Assembly: GCF_024748615.1 (NCBI RefSeq)
Contig: NZ_CP087168.1
Coordinates: 496,001 to 560,000, forward strand
From: Pseudomonas sp. B21-048
GTDB taxonomy: Bacteria > Pseudomonadota > Gammaproteobacteria > Pseudomonadales > Pseudomonadaceae
Length of the DNA stretch: 64,000 nt
Direction of reading: 5' to 3'
The notes beneath the pieces are model-generated. The model was not told the origin of the DNA and searched no databases. It saw nothing but the letters and a program-made list of their open reading frames with translations. Position 1 is the stretch's first letter; each line of letters begins with the position of its first letter. The translations under genes were made by a program, and so were the position numbers. This document shows, one piece after another, positions 3,432 to 42,782 of the stretch.

Positions 3432-4582
3432 GTCAACGGTCAAAGGTTCTGCAATTGCAGCCTGACTACAACGTCAAAACCCATGATTTTGCCGACCTCG
3501 CGGAGCAGATCGTGAAGGCCCTGCCAAGCGATCGCTATGAAGTGACCGCGGCGTTCCTGCGCGGCAAGCCCGGGCCTGGCGAAGCGATGAGCCGCGCCGA
3601 CCGTTCGGTGTATTTCGAGTTTTCCGACAAGTCCCTCAAGGGCATGCGTCTGCGGGCGATGTGGCAGTTGTACAAGTTCTGCCGCGCGGAAAAGTTCGAC
3701 GTGGTGATTTGTAACCGTTTCAAGCCGGTGAACATGATGTTGACGCTCAACCGTTGGTTGAAAGTTCCGCTGTGCATCGGCATCTCCCATGGTTTCGGCG
3801 AGTACGACCGGTTTTACCGGCGCCGCCAGACTCAGCGTCTGATCGATCGTCACTGGCGCTTTGTCGGCGTGTCGCCAGCGGTCAAACAGTACCTGCTCGA
3901 GTGTGACTGTGGCTTTACCGACCAGAATACCTATGCGATCACTAACGCCATCGACATTGAGCAGGCAGAAGGTTTACAGCACAGCCGCGAACAGGCTCGC
4001 GAGCTGCTGGGCATCGACTCGTCGGTGCGCCTGATCGGTGCATTGGGTCGGTTGGTGCCGGTCAAGGGCCATACCTATCTGTTGCAGGCATTTGCCGCGC
4101 TCAAGGACAAATACCCGAACACCCAACTGGCGATCATCGGTGCGGGGCGTGAAGAATCGCGCCTGGCCGGCGAAATCGAACGCTTGGGGCTGACTGGCCG
4201 CGCACATTTGCTGGGTTTCAAGGAAAACGCCTTGCAGTATGTTCGTGCGTTTGACATCTGGACCATGCCCTCCCTGGCCGAAGGCTTGGGTCTGGCATTG
4301 CTCGAAGGCATGAGCGGCCACTTGCCGGTGATCGCCTCGAATGTGCCGGCCATGCTGCCACTCATTCAGGGCGCGGGCGGTTTGGCGATTACCCCGGCGG
4401 ACGTGCCGACCTTGGTCGCGGCACTGGATAACTACCTTGGGCTGTCGGACGACGAACTCAAGGCCAAAGGCGAGCAGGCCTATCGTTATCTCCAGGAACA
4501 ACACGACATCGAGGTGTTCCGTCAGGAATACCTGAACCTGATCGACTCCGGTTTGAGTCAAGCTTGCAAGGAACAACCATGA
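3428..4582 (+). CDS. ssg: GT4 family glycosyltransferase, Ssg-like
   Basis: This 384-residue GT-B enzyme has the N-terminal acceptor half (SHGFGEYDRFYRRR) and a C-terminal GT4 half: GALGRLVPVKGHTYLLQAF, AIIGAGREE, then the nucleotide-sugar motif MPSLAEGLGLALLEGM, the E-x7-E signature of the family. It matches the size and position of Pseudomonas Ssg (cell-surface sugar glycosyltransferase), which affects LPS core, O-antigen and exopolysaccharide in several species. The start overlaps the previous stop and the stop overlaps the next start (both ATGA), so it is translationally coupled on both sides. The transferred sugar cannot be read from sequence. Confidence 0.8.
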   Translation: MSQRSKVLQLQPDYNVKTHDFADLAEQIVKALPSDRYEVTAAFLRGKPGPGEAMSRADRSVYFEFSDKSLKGMRLRAMWQLYKFCRAEKFDVVICNRFKPVNMMLTLNRWLKVPLCIGISHGFGEYDRFYRRRQTQRLIDRHWRFVGVSPAVKQYLLECDCGFTDQNTYAITNAIDIEQAEGLQHSREQARELLGIDSSVRLIGALGRLVPVKGHTYLLQAFAALKDKYPNTQLAIIGAGREESRLAGEIERLGLTGRAHLLGFKENALQYVRAFDIWTMPSLAEGLGLALLEGMSGHLPVIASNVPAMLPLIQGAGGLAITPADVPTLVAALDNYLGLSDDELKAKGEQAYRYLQEQHDIEVFRQEYLNLIDSGLSQACKEQP

Positions 4583-5463
4583 GCGACTCGCAACCCCTCG
4601 TCACGGTCATCATCGCGTCGTACAACCATGGTCGATATATCGAGGAAAGCATTCTCAGTGTCCTCGATCAGACGTATAAAAATATCGAGCTGCTGGTCGT
4701 CGATGATGGCTCCAGCGATGACAGCGTCGAGCGGATCAGTGCCCTGCAGGCGCGGCATGGTTTCGATTTCCGGGTTCAACAGAATCAGGGCCTGACCAAT
4801 ACCCTCAACGGCGCCATCGCTCGTTCAAAGGGCAGCCTGATCGTGCCGTTCGGTTCCGACGACATCATGCTGGCGGAGCGTATCGCCACTCAGGTGGCGT
4901 ACATGGATGGCAAACCCGAGGTCGGGATCTGTGCCGGCAACATCGAGTTGATTGACGCCGACGGCAATCTGTATCCGGAGAAACGTCAGCGCCGCGATGT
5001 GCCATTCCGTCGCCTGGATTTCGATGACATGTTCCTGGAGCGCAAACCTTATCCGCCGGCACCGACCCTGATGATCCGTCGCGAAGCCCTGGACAAAGTA
5101 GGTGGCTTCGATCCGAATATTCGCCTGGAAGACCTGCTGATCGAGTTGAAGGTCACTCGCGCCGGTTACTTCATCGACGGCCTGAATGTGCTGATGGCGC
5201 GCTATCGCAAACACGCCACCAACTCCTACAAGAATCACCGCTTCATGGTCGACAACATCCTGCGCTCCTACGCGCTGTTCAGCGATCATCCGCTGTACGA
5301 CGAGGTGCGCTACAAGTTCCTCAGTTCGATGTTCCTGAAAACCGCCAATCGCGATCGCAAGCTGGCGCGGGAACTGCTGGCGCAGATACCGTTCAAGGCC
5401 TGGAACAAGAAGACCTTGCGCGGTCTGGGGCGCTTGTTTTTTTCGCCGCTGGAAAAGAACTGA
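4579..5463 (+). CDS. wapR: GT2 family glycosyltransferase, WapR-like
   Basis: This 294-residue GT-A enzyme opens with VTVIIASYNHGRYIEESILS and DQTYKNIELLVVDDGSSDDS, the classic GT2 nucleotide-binding region, followed by GSDDIM as the D-x-D metal site (about residue 93). In P. aeruginosa the GT2 gene next to ssg is WapR, the rhamnosyltransferase that makes the core acceptor for O-antigen. The length fits. I chose the ATG at 4579 because AAGGAA lies just upstream and it overlaps the ssg stop; a TTG 15 bases earlier is less likely. A T7 run near the 3' end (5437-5443) is in frame. It ends 35 bases from an opposing acyltransferase gene. The donor sugar is inferred from synteny. Confidence 0.75.
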   Translation: MSDSQPLVTVIIASYNHGRYIEESILSVLDQTYKNIELLVVDDGSSDDSVERISALQARHGFDFRVQQNQGLTNTLNGAIARSKGSLIVPFGSDDIMLAERIATQVAYMDGKPEVGICAGNIELIDADGNLYPEKRQRRDVPFRRLDFDDMFLERKPYPPAPTLMIRREALDKVGGFDPNIRLEDLLIELKVTRAGYFIDGLNVLMARYRKHATNSYKNHRFMVDNILRSYALFSDHPLYDEVRYKFLSSMFLKTANRDRKLARELLAQIPFKAWNKKTLRGLGRLFFSPLEKN

Positions 5464-35678: not shown

Positions 35679-36894
35679 TTGCGCGAAATCGTCCTGATAA
35701 ACATCACGGGAGTCGACCGTCCGGGTCTGACTGCGGCCATTACCGGCGTTCTGGCCCAAGGTGGTGTGAACATTCTCGACATCGGTCAGGCGGTGATCCA
35801 CGACACGTTGTCGTTCGGCATCCTGGTTGAAATTCCCGATACCGAGCAAGGCAACTCGGTGCTCAAAGACATCCTGTTCAAAGGCTATGAGCTTGAGCAA
35901 CAGGTGCGTTTCACGCCGGTGTCCGAAGAGGATTACCAGCTATGGGTCGGCAATCAGGGAAAAAAAACGCCACATCGTCACCCTGTTGACCCGCAAAGTG
36001 ACCGCCGAGCAATTGCAGCGTGTGAGCTCGATCACCGCCAAATATGGTTTGAATATCGACCATATCGATCGCCTGTCCGGGCGCATGCCGCTGGACACTC
36101 CGGCTGACAAGGGCAAGGGCTGCATCGAGTTTTCCGTGCGCGGCGAGGCGGCTGACCCGCAAGCGCTGCGAGCGGAATTCCTCAGCGTCGCGCAAGAGCT
36201 GAACGTCGATATCGCCTTCCAGGAAGATTCGCTGTTCCGCCGTAACCGCCGTCTGGCGGTGTTCGACATGGACTCGACGCTGATCGAAGCCGAAGTCATC
36301 GACGAATTGGCCAAGGCTGCTGGTGTGGGCGACCAAGTGTCCGCGATCACTGAACGGGCGATGTCCGGCGAGCTGGACTTCCGCGCCAGCTTCAAGGAGC
36401 GCCTGGCCTTGTTGCAAGGTCTGGATGTCAGCGTGCTGGACTCTATCGGCGCCTCGCTGCGCCTGACCGAAGGCGCCGAAACCCTGTTCGCCGAACTCAA
36501 GCGTCTGGGCTACAAGACGGCGATTCTGTCGGGCGGCTTCACCTACTTCGCCAAGCAACTGCAGGCCAAGCTGGGCATCGACTATGTGTTCGCCAACGAA
36601 CTGGCTGTGGTCGATGGCAAAGTTACCGGTGTGGCGGTCGAGCCGATTGTCGATGCACAGCGCAAGGCCGATCTGCTGCGTGAGCTGGCGCATAAGGAAG
36701 GTTTGCGTCTGGAGCAGACGATTGCCGTCGGTGACGGTGCCAACGACCTGCCGATGCTGGCGATTGCCGGGTTGGGCGTGGCGTTCCGTGCCAAGCCGCT
36801 GGTCAAGCAATCAGCGAAGCAGGCGATTTCCACCCTTGGGCTGGATGGCGTGCTGTATTTGCTGGGCTTGCGGGATCGCGACGGGCAGCTCTGA
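35679..36894 (+). pseudogene. serB: Phosphoserine phosphatase SerB, interrupted by a +1 frameshift in an A8 run
   Basis: The gene would encode a 404-residue SerB with two N-terminal ACT-like domains and a HAD phosphatase domain (FDMDSTLIEAEVIDELA, then LSGGFTYF and GDGANDLPML). It makes serine from phosphoserine in the cytoplasm. The frame from the TTG start at 35679 (GGGGG site upstream) runs through SEEDYQLWVGNQGKK and then leaves the family, stopping at 36107. The rest continues in the next frame. The switch lies at 35960-35967, an eight-A run; with seven As the sequence reads GNQGKKRHIVTLLTRK and the length is a multiple of three. Either the base count is wrong, or the gene is really broken, or polymerase slippage restores the frame. 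Confidence 0.9.
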
Positions 36895-41178: not shown

Positions 41179-42712
41179 CTAGCGGTGACTGAAGTTGTGC
41201 AGGGCTTTCTCGATGCATTGCGCGGTTTTGCCGAACGCTTGCACGGTGATTTCCGAGAACGGCCCACCGCCCTGATCCGCCACCACGATCATGATCACCC
41301 GGCCATTGTTGACCAGCGAGCGCAGCAACAAGTGTTCGCCGCTGAACTGTTGACGCAGGCTGGCCGGCAGCAGGGCCGAGAATTGTGCGTTGTTGGCCGG
41401 CGTCAGGCGCACCTGCGCCTGTTGCGTGAGCAGGCGCTGCAGCACAGTGCTCTGACTGACCACCAGATTCAGGCCGGCCACTTCCTTGGGCAACCCGGCA
41501 GTCTGGTGCGCGCGCAGATTAGCGTGCGTACGGTCAGCCATCAGAATCATCACCCGCCGCATGCCGCACGCCAACAGGGCGTCTCGGGCCGATGTGGTCA
41601 AGTGCATGGCATTGGTAAAAGGACTCGGCTCCACCAGCAACTCGGCGCATTGTTTGCGCCACTTCGCCAGGTCTTCGGCAGTGGGCGCCGGGGCTGGTAG
41701 GAAGCCGGCGTGAAGGCGGTTGGTCCCCGACGGCCAGATCAGCGCTTCGGCCGGGTGCCAGAGGTCTGGCATGGCGTGTTGGCGGGCACTGTTAGCGGCC
41801 TGTTGGTGCAATTGTTGCCGCACCTCATCCAGCGGAATTTGCAAGTAAAGGCTGGTCAGGTATTGCCAGCGTTCGCAATGGGGACTGTCCCAGGCTTGTT
41901 GTGCCGACAGTGCCAGACCATTGGCCAGCAGCACGGTATTGGCTGGCTGATTGAGCCAGCGGCGCAGCGTCGGGTCGTCATCGAGGCGATTCTGTTGGCG
42001 CAGCGGGTGCTCGCTGTCACGCGCGATGCGCAAGACTTTCACCAGTTCACGTTGCTCATTGAGCAGCAGCCGATAACCCTGTTGGACCCAGATCGGCAAA
42101 CGCCAGGTGTCCACCAGCGTCAGACAGATTTCCAGCAGACGCACGCCGAACAATTGCGTTTCGACTCTGCGCGCCGACTCACCTTTATGGATGACCCGCA
42201 GCTCCCACTCTTCGAGCAACTGCGGATGGGTTAATGCCATGGGCCACAGTGGCGAAAGAAACAGCAGGCTGCCCCAGTGGATGTCTTGCCATAGCCGTGC
42301 CAGGCGACTGGCAAAAAAAACCGTTGGCCTGTTGCGTGGCGTGCTGGCTGATCAGCTGGAGCTGGCGCAGTGCAACGGGAATCTGTGATTGAGGTTCGGC
42401 CGGCAGGCGCTCGAGCAATTCTTCGGTGCGTTTCAAACCGAGGCGATTGATTGCCACCTCAAGGTTTTCAGCAGGCTCGGTCATGCTGCCATGGGTATGG
42501 CGGTTAGCTTCGCGAATCACGCTCAAGGCCAGAGCCGGGCTGTCCTGCATCAGTTCGGCGATGTCTCGCAGTGAGCTGCGGTTATCGCGGATGGTTTTGC
42601 TGACGCGGTCATGACTGGCTTGCGGAATCGGCAGGCGCACACCATCCAGAAGCTTGACCCAGCCTTCGAGCGTGGTTGGTCTTGGCGTTGGGACGTTCGT
42701 TTCGTTAGCCAT
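41179..42712 (-). pseudogene. HDOD-domain protein gene, interrupted by a +1 frameshift in an A8/T8 run
   Basis: Two partial frames together spell one HDOD protein of 510 residues. The upstream part (from 42712) has PTTLEGWVKLLDGVRLPIPQ and the HDOD core (SPALALSVIREANR, AINRLGLKRTEELLERLP). It runs into nonsense after QQANGFF at 42313-42320, where the coding strand has eight Ts. With seven, it reads QQANGFFASRLARLWQDIHW and joins the second frame (MALTHPQLLEEWELRV), and total length becomes a multiple of three. HDOD proteins are signalling or regulatory modules lacking HD-hydrolase residues. The gene sits next to rhdA and motA, as PA4955 does in P. aeruginosa. It may be truly broken or reflect a base-count error. 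Confidence 0.88.
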
Positions 42713-42782
42713 GTCTGGACGCAATCATCGTCTGCATTACCTATCTCTGCGCGGGTCAAAATAGCTTTTCGCCTGAACTGGC

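Follow-up and report, generated by a model that had tools for sequence, protein, structure and literature searches.

The window analyzed here, a 64,000-nucleotide stretch of the Pseudomonas sp. B21-048 genome, which was assembled as one contig of 5.71 Mb with 99.95% completeness, contains on its forward strand a serB gene divided between two reading frames. Translation starts from the TTG codon at position 35679, and the 5′ reading frame (35679 to 36107) encodes the first ACT domain, followed by an out-of-frame tail that ends with the TGA codon at 36105 to 36107, giving a product of 142 amino acids. The remaining part of serB (35968 to 36894, same strand), coding for the second ACT domain and a complete HAD phosphatase domain, is in a different frame, whose open stretch extends from 35827 to 36894. 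The change of frame, seen both in the sequence itself, AGGGAAAAAAAACGCC, and with a frame-change model trained on long open reading frames (ORFs) from the same genome, coincides with a run of eight adenines (A8) at 35960 to 35967; the model placed the switch at base 35960. The interval from 35679 to 36894 comprises 1216 bases, which is not a multiple of three. The initial annotation, which described serB as broken at this run, had its coordinates right.

Both halves of the gene are recognizable. The 5′ ORF matches the Pfam domain ACT_6 (residues 3 to 79, 91.9 bits), whereas the 3′ ORF matches ACT_PSP_2 (39.1 bits), HAD (90.8 bits), and, over positions 1 to 219 of 219, TIGR00338 (265.4 bits with a cutoff of 144.15), and its translation contains the FDMDST and GDGAND motifs. 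Judging from the ACT_6 and TIGR00338 matches and the frame model, the frame break at A8 is more than a chance juxtaposition. The domain order (two ACT domains followed by HAD) and the HAD motifs are those of the SerB proteins of the TIGR00338 family, which in the relatives are ∼400 to 408 amino acids long. Unlike in the usual SerB, however, the first ACT domain and the remainder of the protein are in different frames in this assembly, and its serB lacks the single frame through the ACT domains and the phosphatase that the relatives have.

Searches for SerB in 57 genomes gave matches in 51 of them, including the genome analyzed here, and all 35 same-genus relatives among these matches encode SerB in one open frame. 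Similarly, one frame of 400 to 408 amino acids was found in each of the best 80 of 551 named loci. The assignment of A8 as the abnormal state is borne out, and the relatives checked carry one open SerB frame, but seven As are not the usual state either: among these best 80 loci, the site contains at most six As (2, 3, 5, and 6 As in 16, 29, 11, and 24 loci, respectively), and in the four closest serB genes it reads GGC AAG AAA, with three As. Nor did the proposed check for close relatives that combine A8 with an intact SerB reveal any such case among those 80 loci. A pattern representing one extra base within the Gly-Lys-Lys codons had a single match among 398 genomes of the genus, namely, the genome analyzed here; this pattern sees only fitting codons, and its uninterrupted form suits 58 of the 115 fetched loci, or about half. 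A pattern of seven to nine As with serB flanks, applied to the same 398 genomes, picked up this genome and the relative G140 and no others; G140 has seven As at the site and an intact SerB of 404 amino acids.

The nearest named serB genes among the best 80 of 551 loci are those of Pseudomonas farris SWRI79 (94.8% identical), P. mandelii, Pseudomonas sp. Irchel s3b2, and P. lini, and for this reason the genome is placed in the P. fluorescens complex. A DNA pattern scan of the named genomes, in which records very near this genome may be left out, returned no match. No same-species intact SerB, identical to both halves, was found among the 11 proteins opened from the best 120 of 1636 protein matches; nine of these 11 are 404 amino acids long and two (P0001 and P0002) are 375 amino acids long. 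Likewise, nothing clearly equivalent to the 142-aa stub turned up in a protein search, the top match being 91% across 73% of the query. Among the relatives checked, the serB break is private to this assembly.

Codon comparisons indicate that little time could have passed since any real break. Relative to P. farris, and excluding the three run codons, there are 0 amino acid changes and 8 silent ones in the 93 codons that precede the run and 1 and 51, respectively, in the 308 codons that follow it; the P. farris SerB differs in a single residue, near the C terminus, of the 401 compared. In comparisons with six other relatives, there are 1 to 6 amino acid versus 8 to 17 silent changes before the run and 2 to 9 versus 48 to 87 after it. 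The low ratio of amino acid to silent changes shows that both halves have been under selection, and SerB was therefore in use until now. By this reasoning, the break is either very young or not real, as a gene in long decay would be expected to look otherwise.

The neighborhood of serB was compared with that of G005, a relative for which 170 kb could be aligned at 88.4% identity. This comparison and the frame model identified a second eight-base run in the same window (42313 to 42320, reverse strand; T8 in the coding sense), missed in the initial annotation, that breaks an HDOD-domain gene (41179 to 42724, reverse strand) into a 5′ ORF (42185 to 42724) and a 3′ ORF (41179 to 42240). The 5′ piece matches the Pfam HDOD domain (27.8 bits), and the 3′ piece has no family match; the two share a single frame in each of the 18 matched same-genus relatives and are in two frames here. 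Another break, 55 kb upstream, is found at a G7 run (G000:C1:477105-477111, where G000 is the genome analyzed here; positions 1105 to 1111 of L056), in a gene whose translation presumably represents a PhoD-type phosphatase. Both halves of this gene are in one frame in G005, and the fetched stretch of G140 has no match to it. The runs in the HDOD gene and in the G7-broken gene are each one base longer than the corresponding runs in G005, so that both breaks have the same direction as the one in serB. The three in-gene run breaks span 61 kb (G000:C1:477105-538320). A fourth frame change at an A8 run (G000:C1:2159499-2159508; L155) is in a decayed transposase, presumably IS66-like as judged by eye, and was found in stretches selected for their A8 runs, which are not part of the 1.382 Mb scanned for breaks. 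With the neighboring HDOD and G7 breaks, the question is less about serB itself than about whether the sequence is of poor quality locally or mutations have clustered here by chance.

The scanned 1.382 Mb consisted of 184 kb that include the window, 400 kb, and 798 kb, with a 4-kb overlap included. Only the serB, HDOD, and G7 cases were accepted there as in-gene breaks at runs of at least 7 bases; the 1.198 Mb made up by the other two segments had no accepted case. The frame model, with stricter cutoffs around the window than in the other two segments, returned 6 strong candidates in the 184 kb, 3 of them near runs of at least 6 bases, as well as 12 candidates in the 400 kb (0 near runs) and 40 in the 798 kb (6 near runs). 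The single-contig relatives G140 (240 kb) and G005 (220 kb) yielded 5 and 6 candidates, respectively, with 0 near runs of at least 6 bases. Because the model gives false switches at gene junctions, the run-near candidates were judged by eye, and the six in the 798 kb were rejected as gene junctions or noncoding; this reading was confined to the run-near candidates, with 3 of 6, 12 of 12, and 34 of 40 candidates, respectively, being distant from runs. A second test of the 1.382 Mb detected 14 frame switches at runs of at least 7 bases, which by eye comprised the 3 breaks and 11 gene junctions or noncoding sites. Of the 41 A/T7 runs in the 1.382 Mb that are flanked by coding sequence on either side, 34 are in one frame; the other 7 were dismissed as breaks, being gene junctions or noncoding by eye. 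The two T7 runs offered as controls in the initial annotation do lie within open ORFs (2416 to 2422 inside the ORF 1022 to 2494 and 5437 to 5443 inside 4564 to 5463), but at 72 and 20 bases from the ORF ends they make a weak test. Other approaches proved less useful: six-frame tblastn, whose 60 and 23 candidates were for the most part repeats and shadow ORFs, was too noisy and revealed the serB frameshift clearly in just one of the two directions; a frame test with fixed windows was likewise too noisy to use; and the frame model, when switching was made costly, gave 0, 1, and 0 switches and was not usable.

The number of A8 runs in the genome, 158 in 5.71 Mb, can be compared with 185 in 7.0 Mb, 192 in 6.8 Mb, and 170 in 6.5 Mb for three relatives. 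Among the 84 of these 158 runs that were tested, which were drawn from the first 100 positions and covered 40 of 53 stretches, 67 are not coding on both sides, 1 is at a gene junction, 13 are in frame, and 3 are broken, so that 13 of 16 in-gene runs are in frame, the exceptions being serB, the HDOD gene, and the decayed transposase. Of 30 A8 loci from three relatives, 4 are in frame and 25 are not coding on both sides; the remaining one (L106) has a switch that turned out to be a gene junction and not a break. Systematic A8 overcalling throughout the genome is rejected, as the A8 counts are normal and the in-gene A8 runs tested are mostly in frame; genome-wide homopolymer error is similarly rejected, since run lengths are not inflated and few genes in the sequence scanned are broken at runs. 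The chance that the other two breaks would fall in the same 184 kb is about (184/1382) squared, or ∼0.018, with the window having been chosen for one of the breaks. Statistically, this clustering is weak and suggestive only.

The serB break closely resembles ordinary homopolymer frameshifts, whether fresh pseudogenes or residual consensus errors, with the same single-base change in a run, in one genome, and with both halves otherwise pristine; nothing essential differs, although three cases per 61 kb are slightly odd. Most likely, this is an ordinary event, correctly observed, that involves no new mode of gene control. A local error in the consensus is judged to have a marginally better than even chance of explaining A8, slightly ahead of a fresh mutation; it fits the cluster of the three breaks and the finding that no relative checked has lost serB, and it is the local clustering that makes for this slight lean. 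Silent third-position differences in the lineage make an unbroken A-run out of the Gly-Lys-Lys codons, and this lineage-specific run is recorded as eight, a one-base length change at the very tip of the tree that is private to the assembly; under such a scenario, the change would stem from a local length error of the assembly. The living strain would then probably have a working SerB, and the sequencing reads would be expected to disagree with the consensus at the serB run.

Several observations speak against a local error: runs in the rest of the assembly show little disturbance, the total A8 count is not inflated, the cluster is statistically weak, and the transposase break is far from the other three. 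The state of the runs elsewhere also speaks for a real mutation, a very recent slip of replication in the isolate that was sequenced, with SerB truncated. This alternative must be given substantial weight, if somewhat less than an even chance. Replication slips readily on long A runs, as stated in PMC1088944. However, a fresh mutation leaves the local cluster of breaks unexplained, and no relative checked has lost SerB, even though ThrH scores over the cutoff in 24 of the 28 relatives searched (this genome excluded). There is also no sign of a mutator: MutS and MutL are intact, both scoring over the cutoff in open frames with no internal stops, and a mismatch-repair defect was accordingly discarded as the cause.

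If serB is indeed truncated, the strain would have to rely on ThrH, serine supplied by the medium, or small amounts of a SerB catalytic fragment restarted from the ATG codon at 36085. ThrH, named in the initial annotation as a possible rescue, is in fact encoded by an intact gene in this genome (386 bits), as is SerC, which is consistent with a fresh mutation. In P. aeruginosa, ThrH has been reported as a second phosphoserine phosphatase (cited in PMC5764234). The latter paper describes P. stutzeri SerB as dispensable in some defined media, again compatible with a recent loss, and suggests ThrH as the reason; since that organism still depends on serB to some extent in the majority of defined media, which for its part favors a consensus error here, ThrH is probably a partial backup for SerB. 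The literature on serB with serine auxotrophs in Pseudomonas that was searched held nothing on this question. Three same-genus genomes (G001, G003, and G006) have no ThrH over the cutoff and still have SerB open, providing natural contrasts for the study of the backup.

The ACT stub has no catalytic part. The ATG at 36085 is in the SerB frame, 20 bases ahead of the TGA codon of the stub, and ribosomes might therefore restart there, although no clear Shine-Dalgarno sequence was seen for this codon. The putative product (36085 to 36894, forward strand; 269 amino acids) would keep the whole catalytic domain. It matches solved phosphoserine phosphatases, including 1f5s, a 211-aa enzyme, nearly all of which aligns with its residues 53 to 253; 1f5s appears too short to contain ACT domains of the SerB kind. 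The resemblance of the catalytic domain alone to this enzyme is a further point in favor of a real mutation.

A very improbable alternative is that the run is a slippery site in use, where RNA polymerase or the ribosome slips to make some full-length SerB. Rescue at an A11 run, at about 20 to 25%, is described for Citrobacter tssM1 (PMC4256274), and judging from the serB sequence, a tRNA-Lys bound to AAA could shift downstream by one base and pair again. Similarly to tssM1 and to the A9 run of Thermus dnaX (described in PMC1088944), serB has an A-run at the frame change. However, the serB run is shorter than either, it is unconserved, and one base would have to be lost (or two gained), whereas the tssM1 rescue adds bases. 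Polymerase in runs mainly inserts and rarely deletes (PMC5574713), which is the wrong direction for the serB message. For ribosomes, PMC4363877 has at least two AAA codons translated normally and describes sliding for three or more, and the serB frame has two. A large share of genomes show selection against slippage-prone A/T runs at a length of nine (PMC1088944), and programmed slippage is expected at ∼9 or more As; the serB run has eight. A conserved recoding site is rejected, the run with its offset being present in 0 of the best 80 of 551 named loci and in 1 of 398 genomes of the genus, this one included, the latter count being blind where the codons differ. The initial annotation had listed slippage among the possible rescues; as a likely rescue it is not supported for a short, unconserved run that would need to slip in the wrong direction. 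Least credible of all is a real but leaky A8 serving as a reversible serine switch, in which the majority of cells would produce just the ACT stub, slippage or reversion of the run length would restore SerB in a minority, and phosphoserine phosphatase activity would come from ThrH or the ACT-free restarted fragment.

This case serves as a warning, with a core biosynthesis gene seemingly lost in one assembly and intact in all relatives checked. Until the reads have been inspected, any prediction that this strain requires serine should not be trusted. If A8 proves to be real, the strain would provide a natural test of how far ThrH can replace SerB in Pseudomonas.
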